From the NCBI GenBank assembly GCA_034231615.1, contig CM067299.1:16412834-16476833 (forward strand): 64,000 nt of DNA, written 5' to 3'. Shown one piece after another: positions 3,238 through 56,740 of the stretch. Origin of the DNA: Meghimatium bilineatum (lineage: Eukaryota; Mollusca; Gastropoda; Stylommatophora; Philomycidae). Position numbers and translations under genes: made by a program. The first letter of the stretch is position 1. Every line of letters begins with the position of its first letter. The notes beneath the pieces were generated by a model. The model saw nothing but the letters and a program-made list of their open reading frames with translations, was not told the origin of the DNA and ran no database searches.

Positions 3238-4697
3238 ATCATCAATCAATCAATAAACCCATAACCCTTCAGGGTCGTAGGGGTACCACATTGGATGCTT
3301 CAGCACACAGTCCTCTAGCGAATTCTATCCTCAGCGATGCGGATGAGTGTGGAAATATCTAGCCCTGTCCATTCCTTGATGTTGTCTGTCCATGTATTTA
3401 TTTGCCCTCCTCTGCTTCTTCCCCCTCGACAGTTCCCTGCAGTATTGTTTTTTTTAATAAAGAATCGTGCCTGCATACATGTCCGAACCATGCTAGTTTT
3501 CGTCGTTTCACTATTGAAAGCAATGGCTCCTGGACACCTGCACACATCTCTACTTTATTTCTTACGTACACATTGGTCTTATGTTCCCTATAGGAAATTC
3601 GTAGAATTCTTATGTAGCATTTATACTCGAAAGCCTGTAATCTTCTCTCCATGTCCGCAGTGAGTGTCCAACTCTCACAACCATACAACACAACAGAAAG
3701 CACCAGCGACCTATACAGTTTGATTTTCACTCCAACACTGATGTTGCTTTTCCAAATCACAGTTAGCCTTGACAAGGACGCTGAAGCCATCTCCAGCCTT
3801 ATTTTTAGTTCTGCTTTGCATTTACCATCGCTGCATATACTGGATCCGAGGTATTTGAAGGTATTCACCTCTTCAAGCTTGTGTCCATTCATCATGATAT
3901 TAGTCTGGTTTTCAGTGTCTCTGCTGTTTACCAAGATTTTGCTCTTATCTGAATTGATTTCCATTCCGTACTTGCTGATAACTTTTTCTAACTTTGATGT
4001 TAATTCTTGCAATGATTGTTCTGACCCAGCTATAAGATCAATATCATCAGCGAAACGCAAGTTGCAAATAGGGCGACCTCCGATCGATATAGACGTGTTG
4101 TAGTCATGTAATGTCTCTTGTATGATGTGCTCTAAGTATATGTTAAAAAGTACTGGGGACATTATGCATCCCTGTCGAACTCCCACAGTTGTTTTGAAGA
4201 ACTCTCCAATTGTATTGTGTGACAAGACAGCACTATTTGCATTTTTGTACAGAGCTTCAATAATGTCTATAATTGTGGTGTCAAAATTAAATTTCCTCAG
4301 TATTGTGCCACAGACCATCATGCCAAACACGATCAAAGGCCTTTGTAAAGTCAATGAAGTTGTGGTATAGATCACGTTGGTGCTGAATATGTTTTTCGAT
4401 TAGTGTTCGGATGTTAAATATTTTTTCAACAATGCTTCTGTTTGCTCTGAAGCCAGCTTGTTCTTCTGCAATTATTTCTTCCGACTTGTGTTTTATTCTG
4501 TTAAGTAGTATTTTGAGCATCACTTTACTGGGGTGTGTTATAAGGCTAATTGTTCTGTAATTTGTACACACTTTCAAATTTCCTTTCTTGGGAATTGGTA
4601 TTATTAGTGATTTTGTCCAATCAGTGGGCCATTGTTTTGTGTTCCATATATTTTGGCATATTTTGGTCATAATATTTCCCACAATGATCATACCAAG
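3238..4697 (-). pseudogene. 5'-truncated LINE with reverse transcriptase domain
   Basis: This is the best-preserved RT in the window. In order on the minus strand it shows PIPKKGN, EEQAGFRANRS, FIDFTKAFDRVWHDGLW (motif A), GVRQGCIMSPVLFNIYLEHI (motif B), LRFADDIDLIAG (catalytic FADD box), FKYLGSSI, VLYGCESWTL and a C-terminal TWTDNIKEWTGLD. Two frameshifts break it: near 4300, just after motif A, and near 3440. The 3' end is marked by repeated TGAT (atcaatcaatcaat on the plus strand at 3239-3254). Endonuclease and early RT parts are missing, as expected for abortive target-primed insertion. The style resembles RTE/BovB-like elements, but the clade is not proven. It lies 58 bp upstream of a host exon on the opposite strand. 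Confidence 0.9.
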
Positions 4698-4755
4698 TCC
4701 TAAATCTTAGAATGAACGATGTTGCCATAACTATCAATAATTTCTTACTTTTCAG

Positions 4756-7165: not shown

Positions 7166-7385
7166 CATCATCAAGTGCTGTCTCCGCAACGAAGGATGGC
7201 TGCAACGGATCTCCAATATCTCCGTCTCTTGTCTTGGTGGTGCACTCTGCTAGACTGTAACCTTTTCCTCGTGTCATGTTACTCTTCCACTTGTATCTCA
7301 GACTGCTTATAGCTCGCTTCCCTTTGATTACCGCGTGTCCTGGCACAAAAATAAAAGTCACTGTACGCACACAGGAATTATTCAC
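7155..7385 (-). pseudogene. LINE-C 3' tail joined to an RNase H remnant
   Basis: One open frame reads VTFIFVPGHAVIKG, an RNase H end motif (PGHAGvxGNE), directly followed by SSLRYKWKSNMTRGKGYSLA and AECTTKTRD, the LINE-C C-terminus. The juxtaposition lacks the normal intervening sequence, so it is probably a deletion or template-switch product. LINE-C tails also occur at 16745, 29121, 30715, 46860 and 56560. Confidence 0.6.
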
Positions 7386-10510: not shown

Positions 10511-10714
10511 CTCTGTACAGAAAGTAAACAAGCCTACATTCGTTACTTTTTTTTAATTATTGTCGTGTTTTCGTTGGTCGCTATTCATATATTTTGAGTC
10601 GCATGCCAAAAAAGCCAAGGTTGACCAACGAAATTAACGGAAATAATCAAAAATAAGCTTCTTAGGTTATGCTTATTGTACAATACTTATTGTATGCTTA
10701 CTTTCTGTACACAG
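10511..10714. mobile_element. MITE-K, fold-back element
   Basis: Terminal inverted repeats ctgtacagaaagtaaacaag and gcttactttctgtacacag bound about 200 bp. The interior is also inverted (attattgtcgtg and cgttggtc against gaccaacgaa and ggaaataat), so a single strand could form a long hairpin. A second copy is at 31708-31900 and a partial one at 36345-36450. Confidence 0.75.
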
Positions 10715-16744: not shown

Positions 16745-16945
16745 TCACTATGTTGAAGACATTCCCTGAAGATAGAGTTGAGGGGAGGCGATCTAGAAGT
16801 AGGCAGAGATACAAGTGGGAGGGAAACATCAGAAGGTGGACAGGTCAGTCTAGCAGAGTGCATAGACAAGGCAAGAGTTAGAGGATATTGGAGATCTGTT
16901 GCAGCCAACCTTTGTTGCAGAGATGGCACTCAATGATGATGAAAT
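16745..16945 (+). pseudogene. LINE-C 3' tail
   Basis: Reads about RGRRSRSRQRYKWEGNIRRW with SLAECIDKARVRGYWRSVAA, the recurrent LINE-C end. Confidence 0.65.
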
Positions 16946-25620: not shown

Positions 25621-25639
25621 TGACTAACTACTAAGCAAG

Positions 25640-26107
25640 ACTCGTGTGCTTGTCCGACATAGCAAATAAGTTATATGACAATCTAACTAAGCAGATTCGT
25701 GTTTCTCCAACATAGCAAATTAGTTATACGATAAACTAGCTAAGCAGATTCATGTTTGTCCGACATAGCAAATAAGTTATATGACAATCTAACTAAACAG
25801 ATTCGTGTGCTTGTCCAACATAGCAAATTAGTTATATGACAATCTAACTAAGCAGATTCGTGTTTCTCCAACATAGCAAATTAGTTATACGATAAACTAG
25901 CTAAGCAGATTCATGTTTGTCCGACATAGCAAATAAGTTATATGACAATCTAACTAAACAGATTCGTGTGCTTGTCCAACATAGCAAATTAGTTATACGA
26001 TAAACTAGCTAAGCAGATTCGTGTTTGTCCGAAATAGCAAATAAGTTATATGACAATCTAACTAAACAGATTCATGTGCTTGTCCAACATAGCAAATTAG
26101 TTATATG
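25640..26107. repeat. Satellite with three-part higher-order unit (161 bp)
   Basis: A monomer of about 54 bp (agcagattcgtgttt, ccaacatagcaaatta gttatat) is repeated about nine times. Three monomer variants (..tttctccaac.., ..catgtttgtccgac.., ..gtgcttgtccaac..) alternate, so atctaactaagcagattcgt recurs at 25681 and 25842. The third higher-order unit is incomplete. Confidence 0.85.
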
Positions 26108-26242
26108 TCTTCTTCTGCATTCGTTTTCAAACTTCTGAAGATTAGCAGGGTGTAGCCTGGAGAAAGGAGTGCTTTGTGCAATGACACAGCTTCATTGCGA
26201 TATCTGTGCCTTTCGGCCTGACACATCTGACTTTAGCATAGC
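26108..26242 (-). mobile_element. SINE-A, 5'-truncated, next to the RAG1-like ORF
   Basis: Complement of the SINE-A 3' half (tcttctgcattcgttttcaa to ctgactttagcatag). Its end lies about 25 bp from the stop of the minus-strand ORF at 26268 and may truncate that element. Confidence 0.8.
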
Positions 26243-26267
26243 AGTTATCTCTTTTTTGTCAAGAGTT

Positions 26268-27738
26268 TTAGTGGTACTTTGTTTCTTTTCGTGGTACAAT
26301 TATTCTTTTAAAGACTAAAGGCTGTCCTCCTGTTTTGAATCTTAAATAAAGTTTATTTGGGTTATTGTGTAGCTTTCTTCTAATTAGAGTTGTGATTAAT
26401 AATTCTTCCTGCTTTGTCAAGGGTTCCGTCAAAGGTTTGTTGAGAATGTATTGAAAATTGAAGTCACATTTCAACTTTGGAGAAGTGGATCTGTCTGATG
26501 TAAATTTTCTGAATTCTGAAACTGTTGATGTAACTGTAGAATGTTGACCAAATATAGCAGAATCTTGTATGGAGTGCCTTGGAGGTATATTAATTATGAA
26601 TGGTGTGCTGTTATAGCTAAGAAGTAGTGGAAATGCAGGTGTGTATGTGAAAGGTGTGCCAATATAGCTAAGAAGTCGTGGAAATGCTTGTGGATTTATG
26701 AAAGGTGTGCCGTTGGAGCTATGAAGTCGTGGAAATTGTATATATGTGGAAGGTGTGCCGTTATAGCTAAGAAGTCGGGAAAATGCAGATGTTGTAGATG
26801 TGTACGGTGTGCTGGTATATGTAGGTTGTAGAAAAGTTGTACTAAATGTGGAAGATGTGCTGGTATATGTAGGTTGTAGAAAAGTCGTACTAAATGTGGA
26901 AGATGTGCTGGCATATGTAGGTTGTGGAAAAGCCGTACTAAATGTGGAAGATGTGCTGGCATATGTAGGTTGTGGAAAAGCCGTACTAAATGTGGAAGAT
27001 GTGCTGGTGTATGTAGCTTGTGGAAAAGCCGTACTAAATGTGGAAGATGTGCTGGTGTATGTAGCTTGTGGAAAAGCCGTACTAAATGTGGAAGATGCAC
27101 TGGTGTACCTAAGAAGTCGTGAAAATGCAGGTGTTGTAAAAGTGGAAGATATGTCTTCATTAAATGTAAGACTACAGGGAATTGTAGATGTTTTAACAGT
27201 AATTGGCATGCTGATATTGGTAAGGAGTTGGGATACCGTTGCCATTACTGGCATTAACATATTGTCCTCCGACTCTCTAGAGGGAAATAACACAGGTGAC
27301 TGTAATATCAAGATATTCTCATTGACTTGATTCACGCCATTATCAAAAACTTGCTTTCTTTTTATGCTGCCACAGCTCATACTTTGATGATGACTACACA
27401 CGGAACATTCTAAAACAGTTAGGTTAGGATTAAATTCCACCCAGATATGTGCACTGTTAGTAGCCATCAATCTGGCTCTAGCTAGAGATTTATCATCCTT
27501 ATTGAACTTGAGTTTATAGTTTCTCATTTTACAATTGGCACACAATGTGGTTGAATGTTTTGTTTCACTGTCGTCCTTGATGTGTATCTCATAAATACGA
27601 GATAATTCACTTTGATACAAGCTACACAACTGTGGTTTCTTCTTGCGCACCTTTATCTTTCTTAGATAATGTTCTACCTCCACAAATTCTGCACAGGTCA
27701 TTCAAATGTCTCATGTGTCTTGCAATGCTATGTTCCAT
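26268..27738 (-). pseudogene. RAG1 N-terminal-like (N-RAG-TP type) zinc-binding ORF with internal minisatellite
   Basis: The minus-strand frame from Met at 27736-27738 reads MEHSIARHMRHLNDLCRICG and GRTLSKKDKG, then stops at 27622. The other frame (27701 down to 26268, 477 codons) continues with KKPQLCSLYQSELSRIYEIH, STTLCANCKMRNYKLKF, AHIWVEFNPN, LECSVCSHHQ and GSIKRKQ. The order CxICG, then H..xLCxNC, then W....N....CxVC, then a basic KRK is that of the zinc-binding region N-terminal to the RAG1 RING, and of the invertebrate N-RAG-TP transposon proteins. It is followed by a Ser/Thr-rich repeat tract and a C-terminal LTKQEELLITTLIRRKL and FKTGGQPLVFKRIIVPRK. A frameshift between 27640 and 27690 separates the first zinc motif from the rest. 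No RAG1 core catalytic DDE part or RING is visible. The long undamaged frame suggests recent decay or a sequencing indel. The identification is from motif order only. Confidence 0.6.
26590..27110 (-). repeat. In-frame coding minisatellite in the RAG1-like ORF
   Basis: From 26809 to 27110 a 48-bp unit (16 residues, e.g. YTSTSSTFSTAFPQAT, YASTSSTFSTAFPQPT, YTSTSSTFSTTFLQPT) is repeated about six to seven times. At 26590-26800 an older degenerate repeat (FPRLLSYNGTPFTYTP type) precedes it. Units are multiples of three, so the frame is kept. Confidence 0.9.
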
Positions 27739-27769
27739 GTTCCTGTAGATTATGGAAATTAAAATAGAA

Positions 27770-28110
27770 ACATATGCATTGACACAACAGAAGCAAATGC
27801 ATTGACACAACAAATAAATGTATTGACACAATGCAAACAAATTCATTGACACAACACAAACATATGCATTGACACAACACAAACAAATGTATTGACACAA
27901 AAAAAACAAATGTATTGACACAACACAAACAAATTCATTGACACAACACAAACATATGCATTGACACAACAGAAACATATTCATTGACACAACACAAACA
28001 GATGCACTGACACACCAGAAACATATTCATTGACACAACACAAACAAATGTATTGACACAACAGAAACATGTATTGACACAACACAAACAAATGTATTGA
28101 CACAACAGAA
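27770..28110. repeat. Minisatellite, 22-23 bp unit
   Basis: About fifteen copies of attgacacaacacaaacaaat with gc/tc variants. The Cys-rich minus-strand frames over it are repeat artefacts. Confidence 0.95.
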
Positions 28111-28172
28111 ACTTCTTAAAATATAGGCCCCATAAATGTTAAATGTATCTGATCTTTATCAAATTATAATAT

Positions 28173-28336
28173 TTCTTCTGCCTTCGTTCTCAAACTCCTA
28201 CAGATTAACAGGATGTAGTCCGGAGAATGTGGTGTCATAGTTAACAGCTTAGCTGTGATATATGCGCCTTTTCTGACTGACATATCCACCTTCAGCATGG
28301 CTTGTGTGTCACTTAGACAATATGTGGGATAGGAAT
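28173..28336 (-). mobile_element. SINE-A, 5'-truncated
   Basis: Complement of the SINE-A 3' two thirds (ttcttctgccttcgttctca to cacttagacaatatgtggga). Confidence 0.75.
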
Positions 28337-28369: not shown

Positions 28370-28846
28370 ACAACCTGTGACATTTGCAGATAACATTGTT
28401 CTTTTAGCAGAAAGTGAACAGCAACTACAAGGAATAATGGTTTATGTTTATAAATCAAGTAAAGAATATCAACAGTACTGAATATAAACTTTTTATAAAA
28501 ACATGATAATGAGCAAAGTCATTGTAGAACAGGTGATAAACATAAAAATACATGGGGAGAAACTACAAAAGGTAGAACATTATCAATATCTATGACACAT
28601 AATCACAAATTATGGAAGATGTGAAACAGAAGTTAAAAGGACAATTGGAATGGCTAAAAGTACTTTCAATGACATGAAAATATTAACATCTAAACAAATT
28701 ACAAACAAGCTAAAAATGAAATATAAAATGCTACATCTATTCTATATTAATGTTTGACTCAGAAACATAAACAAATTAGAAGACATAATTGATGCCGTTG
28801 AGGTGTGGATAAATAGAAGCATAAGGAGAACATCATGAAAAAGAAT
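28370..28846 (+). pseudogene. LINE-D fragment (RT catalytic box onward)
   Basis: Reads TFADNIVLLAESEQQLQGIM (degenerate FADD box), then INIKIHGEKLQ, GRCETEVKRTIGMAKSTFND, EVWINRSIRRTS and a stop. It continues on the far side of the SINE-A at 28847-29120. Confidence 0.7.
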
Positions 28847-29120
28847 CTTCTTATTCGTTCTTCCTCAAACTCCTGCAGATTAGCAGGATGTAATCCGGAG
28901 AATGAATTGTGTTGTTTCATGGTTTACAGCATTGATGTGATATCTGCATTTTTCAGCCTGACACATCCGGCTTCAGCATGGCTTTGGGTCACTGGCCCTA
29001 TATGGAATGATACAGCCAACTCCATCCCATAATCTCCTTAGTCGCCTCTTATGACATGCATGGAAGGTAAACGGTCTTGCTAGTCTTTGCTCCCCTCTCA
29101 GGCCCTGGCAACACACGAGT
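28847..29120 (-). mobile_element. SINE-A inserted into the LINE
   Basis: Full-length minus copy from cttcttattcgttcttcctc to ccctggcaacacacgagt. The host LINE resumes with gagaaagagaataaaacaga, which partly repeats the left flank gaaaaagaat. Confidence 0.85.
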
Positions 29121-29420
29121 GAGAAAGAGAATAAAACAGAGGTTCTAACATCATTTAATATGAAGATAGAATTATTAAAGGAAATAAAGATCAAGCAAAT
29201 AAAATATTTTGATATATTGAAGACATGACACCTTGTTAAAGACTTTACTTGACGGTAAAGTTGAGGGGAAGCAAACAAGAGGTAGGCAGAGATACAAGTG
29301 GAAGAGAAACATCACGAGATGGACATGTTAGTCTAGCAGAGTGCACCACCAAGACAAGAGACAGGGCATGTTGGAGGTCTACTGCAGTCAACCTTCGTTG
29401 CGGAGACGGCATTGATGATG
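29121..29420 (+). pseudogene. LINE-D/C 3' part after the SINE
   Basis: Reads MKIELLKEIKIKQIKYFDIL, RGRQRYKWKRNITRW and a degenerate tail. In the uninterrupted copy 46556-47140 the two halves are contiguous, which shows the D and C labels belong to one LINE. Confidence 0.7.
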
Positions 29421-30053: not shown

Positions 30054-30710
30054 TTGAAAACTTTAGTTTGTAAAAAATCACTACCGGTTTATGGACCTTT
30101 TGGTGTAATAAAACAAGTCAAAGAGTTCAAGTTCCTAGAAAGTATCTTCACAGAAGACGGACGACTCGACAGAGATATAGAAACAAGATGTCAAAAGGCA
30201 AATACTGTGATATACCAGCTGTCACGTTTGCTATTGCACACACAAAAAAAACATGGAAGTAAAGAAACAAATTATTAAGAGTATCTTTAAACCATCACTG
30301 TGCTCCCAATGCCAGACTTGGCAACTGACATCTACACATAAGAGAATGATTGAAACTTGTGAAATGAAATGTCTACGGAAGGCTATTGGAGTCACCAGAC
30401 TCAACAAAATGCGCAGTGAGAACATCATAAAGATAATATGTATCACATCATGCATCGAATATATTAAAGAAGCAGCAGATAAAATGGTTTTGGCATCTTA
30501 TGAGGATGAACGATCAACTTCCCATAAGAGCCTATAACAAGATGGAATCATGATACAGGGTCAAGGGCATACCTAGGAAAAGGTTGATAGACAACATCAA
30601 GACCATCCTGAATAAACATGACTACACCTTAACCAGAGCAACACATCTGGCCAGAGCAACACACCTGGTTCAGGAACACAGACTACTTCCTCTTCACAAA
30701 CCCCTACATC
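30054..30710 (+). pseudogene. LINE-N, post-RT to C-terminus
   Basis: Reads KQVKEFKFLESIFTEDGRLD, RDIETRCQKANTVIYQLSRL, then MIETCEMKCLRKAIGVTRLN and RLIDNIKTILNKHDYTL with frame changes. Similar to 57896-58680. Confidence 0.7.
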
Positions 30711-30714
30711 ATCA

Positions 30715-30966
30715 TCAAGTGCCGTCTCCGCAACGAAGGTTGGCTGCAACGGATCTCCAACATCCCCTGTCTCTTGTCTTGGTGGTGCACTCTGCTAGAC
30801 TGTAACCTGTCCATCGTGTGATGTTATTCTCCCACTTGTATCTCTGCCTACCTCTTGCTCGTCTCCCTTGATAAGGTCCCTCAAGTAAGGTCTTCAATAA
30901 GGTGGCATATCTTTTAATGTGTCCAAAATAGTTTATTTGCCTACAAACCCCTACGCTCAACGGCAA
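30715..30966 (-). pseudogene. LINE-C 3' tail
   Basis: Best-preserved LINE-C end: RQINYFGHIKRYATLLKTLL, EGPYQGRRARGRQRYKWENN, ITRWTGYSLAECTTKTRDRG and CWRSVAANLRCGDGT. Confidence 0.75.
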
Positions 30967-33840: not shown

Positions 33841-34142
33841 TGACCAAAAAAGTGTTCTTACTAACTATAGTAAATGTAAAATTTCAATCATTTTAAAACA
33901 ACTAAAATTAGATCTATCTATAGAGGATTTCTAGATTTTTGCAACTAGTGAGATAATAGTTTATTTTGCACATTTATATGTCAACTATGCTAACAAACTT
34001 GACACTATAACGTAATGAGACAAGGCATACTGAATTGAAATTAAAAAAATTACGATATTGCTTTACTTGTATAAATATTAAATGTGCGCAGCAATCCATA
34101 ATAAATTTTGCTGTTTTTTTTTTTATTTGAAACACTCATCAT

Positions 34143-34960: not shown

Positions 34961-35084
34961 TTTAATGTCCAGATCGGAATTCCCCTAGCCTCAACAACAG
35001 GTAACTAATTCAACCACTGGGTAATAAATAAGTCGGGTCTGTAACGCCCACTGACCGATCAACTGTGATAATAGTGAAGGGATT

Positions 35085-35260
35085 GCCCTCAGGCGTGCAA
35101 ACTGAAATTCTAGCCTAATATATAATTTCAGGTGTGACTTGATCTTTCCAGTGGTTACCAAATGTTCAAGTTTTACTTTCCTCACCAAATGCCCTTCTAC
35201 ATAAGTTTTCTTGGCTGCCCATGGAATTGTGATAATATTTTTTTTTAACCAGCTCACTTG
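35085..35260 (-). pseudogene. LINE fragment
   Basis: Reads WLKKNIITIPWAAKKTYVEG and RKVKLEHLVTTGKI, the RR.LRIPWTAKKTN..V region with an internal deletion. Confidence 0.55.
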
Positions 35261-44500: not shown

Positions 44501-47500
44501 AGATACTCATAAAATATTTTTCTTCCAGGTCATCAGTCAACCAGACCTTTATCCTATAAATAAATTGAAATTACCGCCATACCCTGGAAGCTGTAAACCA
44601 GGTCAGTATATACCAAGGAAATATTTTTTAAATTATATCCTCATTCATACCCTTACTATAAAAAGGTAATTTGCTCAAATAGGGCTCATTAGCCATCTAC
44701 TAACTATTATGCATGGTCATAATTCTAACTGAATTTTCAAAAGTCGATGTAAAAAAATGTGTGTGGTTGTGATGGGTGACAGACTATAAAAAGGTAATTT
44801 GCTCGAATAGGGCTCATTAGCCATCTACTAACTATTATGCATGGTCATAATTCTAACTGAATTTTCAAAAGTCGATGTAAAAAAATGTGTGTGGTTGTGA
44901 TGGGTGACACACTATAAAAAGGTAATTTGCTCGAATAGGGCTCATTAGCCATCTACTAACTATTATGCATGGTCATAATTCTAACTGAATTTTCAAAAGT
45001 GGATGTAAAAAAATGTGTGTGGTTGTGATGGGTGACACACTATAAAAAGGTAATTTGCTCGAATAAGGCTCATTAGCCATCTACTAACTATTATGCATGG
45101 TCATAATTCTAACTGAATTTTCAAAAGTGGATGTAAAAAAATGTGTGTGGTTGTGATGGGTGACACACTATAAAAAGGTAATTTGCTCGAATAAGGCTCA
45201 TTAGCCATCTACTAACTATTTTGCATGGTCATAATTCTAACTGAATTTTCAAAAGTGGATGTAAAAAAATGTGTGTGGTTGTGATGGGTGACACACTATA
45301 AAAAGGTAATTATTATAATATTTTAATGACATTGTTTCTTTTCATGTAGTTTCCATGAAATTTGGCATCCAGTGAATATAATGTTTGTTGCCTGAGGAAA
45401 GGGCATTTGTTTTTATGATTCTCAGGTGATATTATTACGGTAACTGTTGATTGCAATATATCTATCTATACGCTGTGGCCCTTGTTTGCCTCTCTGTGTC
45501 AGGGATGGAAGAGTTCTCTGGAGATGGCCTTCTTGTGTGCTGTTTGTAAGCTTGTTCCTGTGGCTTCTTTGATTTCTGTGATCCATCTTTTATATGGTCT
45601 GCCTCTGGCTTTATAGCCGTTATGTCTATTTTGTGTCATGGCCATCCATGGCATGCTATCTGTTGGTAATCTGGAAGTGTGGGAAAACCACTTGATCTGT
45701 TGTCTTTTGATGTGTTCCAATACTGGTATTGTTTTGGTTATCTGTCTGATGTTATCGTGTCTAATTCTATCTCTTAATGACACTCCAGATATTCTTCGTA
45801 GACATGTCATTTCTGCTGGTTCAGATATTGGAGTTATGGGGATGAAAATTTAGAACAAGTTTAATTTTATCAGAAGAGGAAGTACCATGATTATTAGTCA
45901 AGGTATCATGATGAGAGAATTTACTAACTCACAGCCAAAAATGAAAGGACACTGTCAGGGTATGAGTCTGTATGAGAGAAAGAAATCAATCATCTCATAG
46001 GATTTGTCAAGAAAGTTGTCATCATAATTTTGCCGTCGTCACGTAGTGGGGATGACAACTTTCTGTGGTGAAGATAGCAATACACACAGCAGCAAACAAG
46101 TAAAGCATGCTTGATCCAGCAAACAAGTCAAGCATGCTTGACCCAGCACACAAGTAAAGCATGCTTGATCCAGCAAACAAGTCAAGCATGCTTGATCCAG
46201 CAAACAAGTCAAGCATGCTTGATCTAGCAAACAAGTCAAGCATGCTTGACTGTGGTTAGCTTTGATGTTTATTACCAGCATGACTACAAGAACCAGTTCT
46301 CTCCTACAGCTGGCTTACTACTAGTGATATTGTTAAAGATAAGCACTGAGTGTATCAGTTTCAACAGTCGGTCGGATGTGCTGAACCATTGGCGCAAATA
46401 AAATGGTAAAATATCGCATTTCCATTCTCTGGACTACATCCTGCAGGAAATTTTGTACTAACAATCTGCCATAAGAGAGATGCAGTGGAAGTTTTAGAAC
46501 AAACAGTGGAAAAAACAGGAACAAATGTTAAACATTAAAAATATGCAGCTATACTGCAACAAGTATACCTGTACCATTATCTTGGACACATAATCACAAA
46601 TGATTTCTGATGTGAAACAGAAGTTAAAGGGATAATAGGAATGGCTAAAAGTACTTTTAATGACGTGAGAAGAAACATCAACATTGAAACAAATAACAAA
46701 CTAAAAATAAGAACTATACCATGTTAAATCTATTATACAGTAATGTATGGCTGAGAAATGTGGATAATGAACTGCCAGAAGATAGAATTCATGCATTTGA
46801 GATGTTGATATATACAGGTAAAAGAATGGAGATAACTTCATGGAAGGAGGGTAAAACAAAGATGTTCTGACAGCACTGTGTATGAAAAAAGATCTATTAA
46901 AGGAAATAAAAAACAAACACATACAATATTTTGGATATATTAGAAAACATGACAACAACTTGTTGACCTTTCTTGAAGGTAGAGTTGAGGTGCAGAGATC
47001 AATAGGTAGGCAGAGATACAAGTGGGAAGGAAACATCATGAGATGTACAGGATGCAGTCTAGCAGAGTGAACTACCAAGGCAAGAGGCAGAAGGTGTTGT
47101 AGGTTTGTTGCAGCCAGCCTTTGATGTGGAGACAACTGAGTGAATTATGGCAGATGTGGATACACTAGAAATTGATGAAGATGAGGCTGTAAGAGACAAT
47201 TTTTTTCATGTTTAGAGAGTGATATAAATAGAAATGACCAAAGAAGAGAGAAGAGAGTGCTTTCTTTCTGGAAAGATCTAACATAGGTAAAGTTACCACA
47301 TAGCATTTATTAATGCCATAGTGATGTGAGATGTTAGTGATCTCACATTTCAGTGGCTCTGCTATATGAGGACAGTAGCCATCTGCTCTCACAGTTTTTT
47401 ACTTCCTGGATTACCAGTACCCAATTACGGCTGGGTCAACCTGGGAGCTATTGTGATCTTGTAAATATTTTCACCTCAACTGGGAAGTGAACCCAGGACC

Positions 47501-56545: not shown

Positions 56546-56559
56546 ATATTAAATCAACA

Positions 56560-56740
56560 AGTGCCGTCTCACAACGAAGGTTGACTGCAACAGACCCCTA
56601 CAACATTCCCCCGGCTCTTGTTTTGGTGGTGCACTCTGCTAGACTGTAATCTGTCCATCCTGTAATGTTAGTTACTCTTCCACTCGTATCTCTGCCTACC
56701 TTCTGCTCGCCTCCCTTCGACTTTACCCTCAAGTAATATC
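56560..56740 (-). pseudogene. LINE-C 3' tail
   Basis: Matches 30715-30840 (gccgtctc.caacgaaggttg, ggtggtgcactctgctagac tgtaa). Confidence 0.7.

Follow-up and report, generated by a model that had tools for sequence, protein, structure and literature searches.

Does an open reading frame that resembles the N-terminal, zinc-binding part of RAG1 in the genome of the mollusc Meghimatium bilineatum represent a stand-alone element of the N-RAG-TP type, as an earlier note on this DNA had proposed, or a piece of something larger? The frame lies in a 64,000-nucleotide stretch (the window). From comparison with related sequences in the same genome, we consider it very likely that the frame derives from an old cut-and-paste transposon of the Chapaev superfamily (CMC clade) and encodes the N-terminal zinc ('Chapa') segment of its transposase.

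The open reading frame and its zinc segment

The coding part of the locus comprises three features:
27679–27738, minus strand: start of the protein with the first CxxC pair, MEHSIARHMRHLNDLCRICG, in a frame that differs from that of the main open reading frame, with one frameshift between the two
26271–27701, minus strand: open frame of 477 amino acids, holding the remainder of the RAG1-like zinc (Chapa) domain, a Ser/Thr-rich linker and a conserved TGGQPL segment
26808–27104, minus strand: 48-bp (16-codon) tandem repeat in the linker, 6.2 copies, 96% matches

The 477-codon frame (27701–26271, stop codon at 26270–26268) is the longest of the stop-to-stop frames in the window and carries the motifs that had been claimed for it: KHSTTLCANC, HIWVEF, LECSVC, KRKQ and, towards its C-terminus, TGGQPL. 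The single frameshift described between the first zinc pair and the rest is also present, as that pair, CRIC, is located inside MEHSIARHMRHLNDLCRICG just upstream of the frame and in the other register (27738–27679). This upstream region matches the N-terminus of the transposon family presented below with 49% identity over 55 aligned positions (tblastn, E 2e-8).

In 40 first-order Markov (Markov-1) simulations of 64 kb, the longest stop-to-stop frame was 230 amino acids. However, this test overstates the coding case, because a repeat unit in multiples of three holds a frame open: the 48-bp repeat covers 297 of the 1431 coding bases and, together with a looser 51-bp array at 26597–26792, makes up about one-third of the frame. 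The length of the frame is thus weak evidence of coding. Better evidence that it was formerly coding is its homology to a family with full open reading frames: Chapaev-type transposases of this genome match it in their N-terminal part with ~60% identity in protein and 72–76% in DNA. One of these, encoded by the copy L009, has a much shorter linker than the repeat-bearing linker of the window frame.

Other repeats are seen around the frame. A 23-bp tandem repeat of 15 copies (27768–28112) lies directly upstream of its start, a 53-bp array occupies 25630–26107, and a dispersed repeat is found on both flanks in the same orientation (26108–26245, 28171–28303 and 28846–28984). Fragments of a non-LTR retrotransposon reverse transcriptase, named by eye from the translation, are located on the minus strand at 3401–4706.

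The likeness to RAG1 was assessed with the Pfam profile PF12560 (RAG1_imp_bd). On its own, the frame matches with an E-value of 0.036, below the curated cut-off, and an unrelated family, SseK_NleB, matches nearly as well (E 0.07). When the frameshift is read through, the match improves to E 1.1e-4 (22.3 bits versus a curated cut-off of 23.3), with residues 4–133 aligned to profile positions 90–219 and all three CxxC pairs in register. L036, another diverged copy, aligns to positions 92–221 (E 0.0041). PF12560 was not reported for L009, the first motif of which is CRICV, or in either of two full-length transposases scanned; a whole-genome search in which 16 candidates were scored gave three weak places, none over the cut-off, and listed neither the window nor its Chapaev family. 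The segment described earlier as RAG1 N-terminal therefore keeps its likeness at the edge of significance, with a score below the curated cut-off whether or not the frameshift is read through.

A pattern of this kind could arise by chance in an unrelated zinc-finger protein, a reading in keeping with the sub-threshold scores and the near-equal SseK_NleB match. Among nine shuffles in which the cysteines were kept fixed, none matched PF12560, although three matched unrelated families (E 0.0039, 0.0017 and 0.0011). Because these reached such values elsewhere, the match at 1.1e-4 is support, not proof. The alignment of L036 to almost the same profile positions also argues against coincidence, as does the fact that complete copies join the segment to a DUF1280 transposase, of a clade shared with RAG1 (passages of PMC3985635). 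We rejected the chance explanation on the shuffle control, with the caveat of the three other matches, and regard it as extremely improbable; the RAG1 N-terminal likeness of the segment appears probable but borderline. Passages of PMC4411706 describe the 'Chapa domain' as a truncated RAG1 N-terminal part common to Chapaev, Chapaev3 and TransibSU. The three CxxC pairs of the window copy fall in register with the PF12560 profile, at about positions 90–219, whereas the score lies just below the cut-off and the partner is a Chapaev core, not a RAG1/Transib core. Searched by sequence against solved structures, the window frame gave one chance-level match (dipeptidase 3, E 0.45).

Complete relatives in the same genome

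A protein search of the 1.61-Gb assembly with the window frame returned at least 171 matches, a lower bound (the best 89 of 11,142 first-look candidates were scored). Among the matches listed, most relatives share ~60% identity over residues 14–239 and ~66% over residues 376–475, open frames reach 1001 amino acids, and in at least seven copies the open frame spans no fewer than 981 codons. In three copies of which the open reading frames were read (L009, L012 and L013), the RAG1-like segment opens a transposase of ~980 amino acids, with ~600 further residues after the RAG1-like part; the fourth copy read, L019, is split into several frames.

Both full-length proteins scanned match PF06918 (DUF1280), with 62.0 and 61.5 bits against a cut-off of 25 (E 8.3e-17 and 1.2e-16). 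As set out in passages of PMC3985635, DUF1280 corresponds to putative Chapaev transposases. In one protein, L009, a DDE core with C(2)C, LH and H(4)H motifs was found by eye, its residues following the Chapaev order: D545, D615, C634/C637, LH at 701–702, H923/H928 and E949. The residue definitions were taken from passages of PMC4079192 for Chapaev and of PMC12730594 for the wider group. A RING family was not reported in the two complete proteins scanned, whereas passages of PMC4411706 describe a RING finger in two Chapaev subgroups. None of the solved structures searched by sequence matched the full transposase, and relatives were not found among the phage records and viral contigs searched.

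For analysis of the ends, 14 loci were taken, 10 of which span both ends; the other four begin inside the element. All 10 have CACACCTG...CAGGTGTG ends, of the CAC...GTG type, and the 8-bp terminal repeats are perfect in nine, with one change in L014. A 4-bp target duplication was identified by eye in every one of the 10 (AACA, TACT, AGAA, AGTA, CAGT, TGCA, GGCT, ATGC, CCAA and AGAT). The earlier note had called for a genome search for copies with an attached transposase and terminal repeats; the complete relatives described here are of that kind. Passages of PMC4079192 assign 3- to 4-bp duplications to Chapaev and 3-bp TWA duplications to Chapaev3, the latter not being seen in the present family. 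Its 4-bp duplications also differ from the 5-bp target duplication that characterizes RAG1, RAG-like and Transib elements in passages of PMC8355894. The complete copies therefore share with Chapaev (CMC clade, non-Chapaev3) the ends, the duplication length, the PF06918 transposase, the DDE-type residues with C(2)C, LH and H(4)H, and the N-terminal RAG1-like zinc segment.

The ten elements are 3.9–6.7 kb long and contain a ~200-bp tandem repeat in their 5' part. L009 is 95.7–99.0% identical to seven other long copies (L010–L016) in the longest aligned piece. These near-identical copies, together with the seven open frames of at least 981 codons, suggest that the family was recently active. In complete copies, the N-terminal part of the protein would most likely recognise the short CAC...GTG ends, and the RAG1/RNase H-type DDE core would cut and insert the element, giving the 4-bp target duplications.

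According to passages of PMC6327564, every species investigated there contained Chapaev and other CMC elements. Finding a Chapaev element that carries a Chapa domain is thus expected, because both the domain and CMC elements have already been described (passages of PMC4411706 and PMC6327564). A literature search, partial in coverage and made without species-specific names, did not find the present family described.

Dispersed copies of a segment that lies close to the 3' end of the Chapaev elements (L009:5981–6273; up to ~290 bp) are also present in the window (29138–29420, 30710–30943, 46859–47126, 16746–16938, 56553–56736 and 7166–7332); this segment is therefore probably a short interspersed repeat that the elements carry. 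A Mariner-like transposase in two overlapping frames, named by eye, lies beside a complete Chapaev copy (L009:6998–8145).

A truncated copy in the window

Alignment of the window to L009 delimits what remains of the element at this locus:
26234–27784, minus strand: stretch over which the coding part is homologous in DNA to the transposon family, aligning to L009:2219–3351 in two pieces (76% and 72%)
33873–34087, minus strand: homologue of the 5' region of the family (L009:1402–1625, 71% identity)
34969–35136, minus strand: probable 5' end of the same element, in which 35049–34969 matches L009:1189–1266 at 72%

The two 5' blocks (34087–33873 and 35049–34969) are 71–75% identical to the 5' region of the element and have the same orientation as the open reading frame. 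The 6 kb between 33873 and 27784 contain other repeats. As order, orientation and similar divergence agree, the blocks and the frame are likely to be parts of one element. Extrapolation from the matched blocks places its 5' end at ~35130, and there, at 35136–35129 on the minus strand, sits an exact copy of the 8-bp terminal repeat CACACCTG, flanked by AAGT. This octamer occurs once in the window and CAGGTGTG twice; directly inside it the alignment is poor and then enters a well-matched run. Position 35136 is thus the probable 5' end of the window copy.

Searches for the catalytic half were negative. In the window, tblastn with the full protein gave the N-terminal part and a chance-level piece at 10528 (E 0.22), and in the 20 kb past the low end of the window it gave chance-level pieces only (E 0.16 and 0.88). 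Neither the 3' end nor the partner target duplication was found in the window or in the same 20 kb, and at the DNA level the window gave chance-level matches 47 and 42 bases long (E 0.002 and 0.004). We infer the mobility of the window copy from its relatives, because its own 3' end and partner duplication were not found. It retains the N-terminal part of the coding region together with a probable 5' end but lacks the catalytic half, differing in this, and in the missing 3' end, from complete Chapaev copies. Given the missing catalytic half, the frameshift in the zinc domain and the interruption by other repeats, it is most likely a pseudogene.

A domain that stands without a transposase is also what the proposal of a stand-alone N-RAG-TP-type mobile element or gene, encoding only the RAG1 N-terminal-like part, would predict. 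The Aplysia N-RAG-TP, in passages of PMC8355894, is RAG1 N-terminal-like sequence throughout and nothing else, and by that description the window frame is alike. However, a second copy of the short form was not seen among the candidates scored (89 of 11,142 for protein; 40 of 349 for DNA). The closest other DNA match in the genome is 79% identical (best 40 of 349 candidates scored), and the relatives at 76–79% include complete, transposase-bearing elements. The homology to the Chapaev family, moreover, continues slightly beyond the stop codon before ending abruptly, as in a truncation. The stand-alone type was therefore not borne out: the sequences related to the window frame in this genome belong to Chapaev transposons, in which a DDE-type transposase is attached. 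We rejected it on the evidence of the complete copies and consider it highly improbable. Truncation of a Chapaev element is the most likely source of the present state, and 3' truncation of such a transposon is enough to explain a RAG1-N-like frame. The window copy is a 3'-truncated, frameshifted and divergent Chapaev relic, an ordinary addition to an already known group.

Selection and the possibility of a host gene

Against the reading as a truncated relic stand the absence of any stop in 477 codons, despite relatives at no more than 79% DNA identity (best 40 of 349 candidates scored), the slight lean towards constraint of the changes on its branch (see below), the failure to find the 3' end and partner duplication, and the sub-threshold PF12560 score, together with the absence of a PF12560 match from L009, from the two full-length proteins scanned and, for the window and its relatives, from the genome-wide search (16 candidates scored). 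The uninterrupted frame and the lack of a close copy among the same candidates are what would be expected of a host gene domesticated from the N-terminus of a Chapaev transposase. The ratio of nonsynonymous to synonymous rates (dN/dS) points the same way, at 0.37–0.54 (ratios of computed values) in the two conserved parts against three family members. No stop is present, whereas random changes in the number assigned to the window branch below should produce ~5 (nonsense fraction 4.5%).

Parsimony with two other lineages (238 of 252 codons) assigned 74 nonsynonymous and 34 synonymous changes to the window branch, in which the path to the root is included. The main-family branch carries 10 and 14, respectively, and the third branch 10 and 3. 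With a neutral expectation of ~3.0:1, the count of 74:34 (chi-square ~2.6) is close to neutral, leaning slightly towards constraint. This near-neutral count argues against domestication, as do the frameshift that cuts off the protein start, with its first zinc pair, from the remainder and the linker repeat units, which at 96% likeness have recently expanded. The pattern is consistent with a lineage of elements that selection maintained during its mobile phase and that has since died. These figures are no demonstration of present constraint; a domesticated phase is compatible with them, and we regard a domesticated host gene as quite improbable.

An unlikely but wider proposal is that the Chapaev zinc domain, having lost its transposase, served temporarily as a host protein in its own right and, more broadly, that the stand-alone 'N-RAG' frames of invertebrates are truncated Chapaev copies, not a distinct type of element from whose fusion RAG1 arose. 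Several near-identical complete Chapaev copies with the domain in one genome offer possible material for studying the role of a RAG1-like N-terminus in a transposase.

Among the three weak places of the genome-wide PF12560 search, L041:1480–3022 (G000:C19, ~21.297 Mb), which scored 16.0 bits (E 4.57), proved to be another protein family (VCSTCANILAGW...VIWREPKNHATDCYFC). A later frame, SHLHFFPDN...EHGERFHQD, recalls by eye the H..H..E part of Chapaev-type cores, and L041 may represent a second, more distant Chapa-like transposase family.
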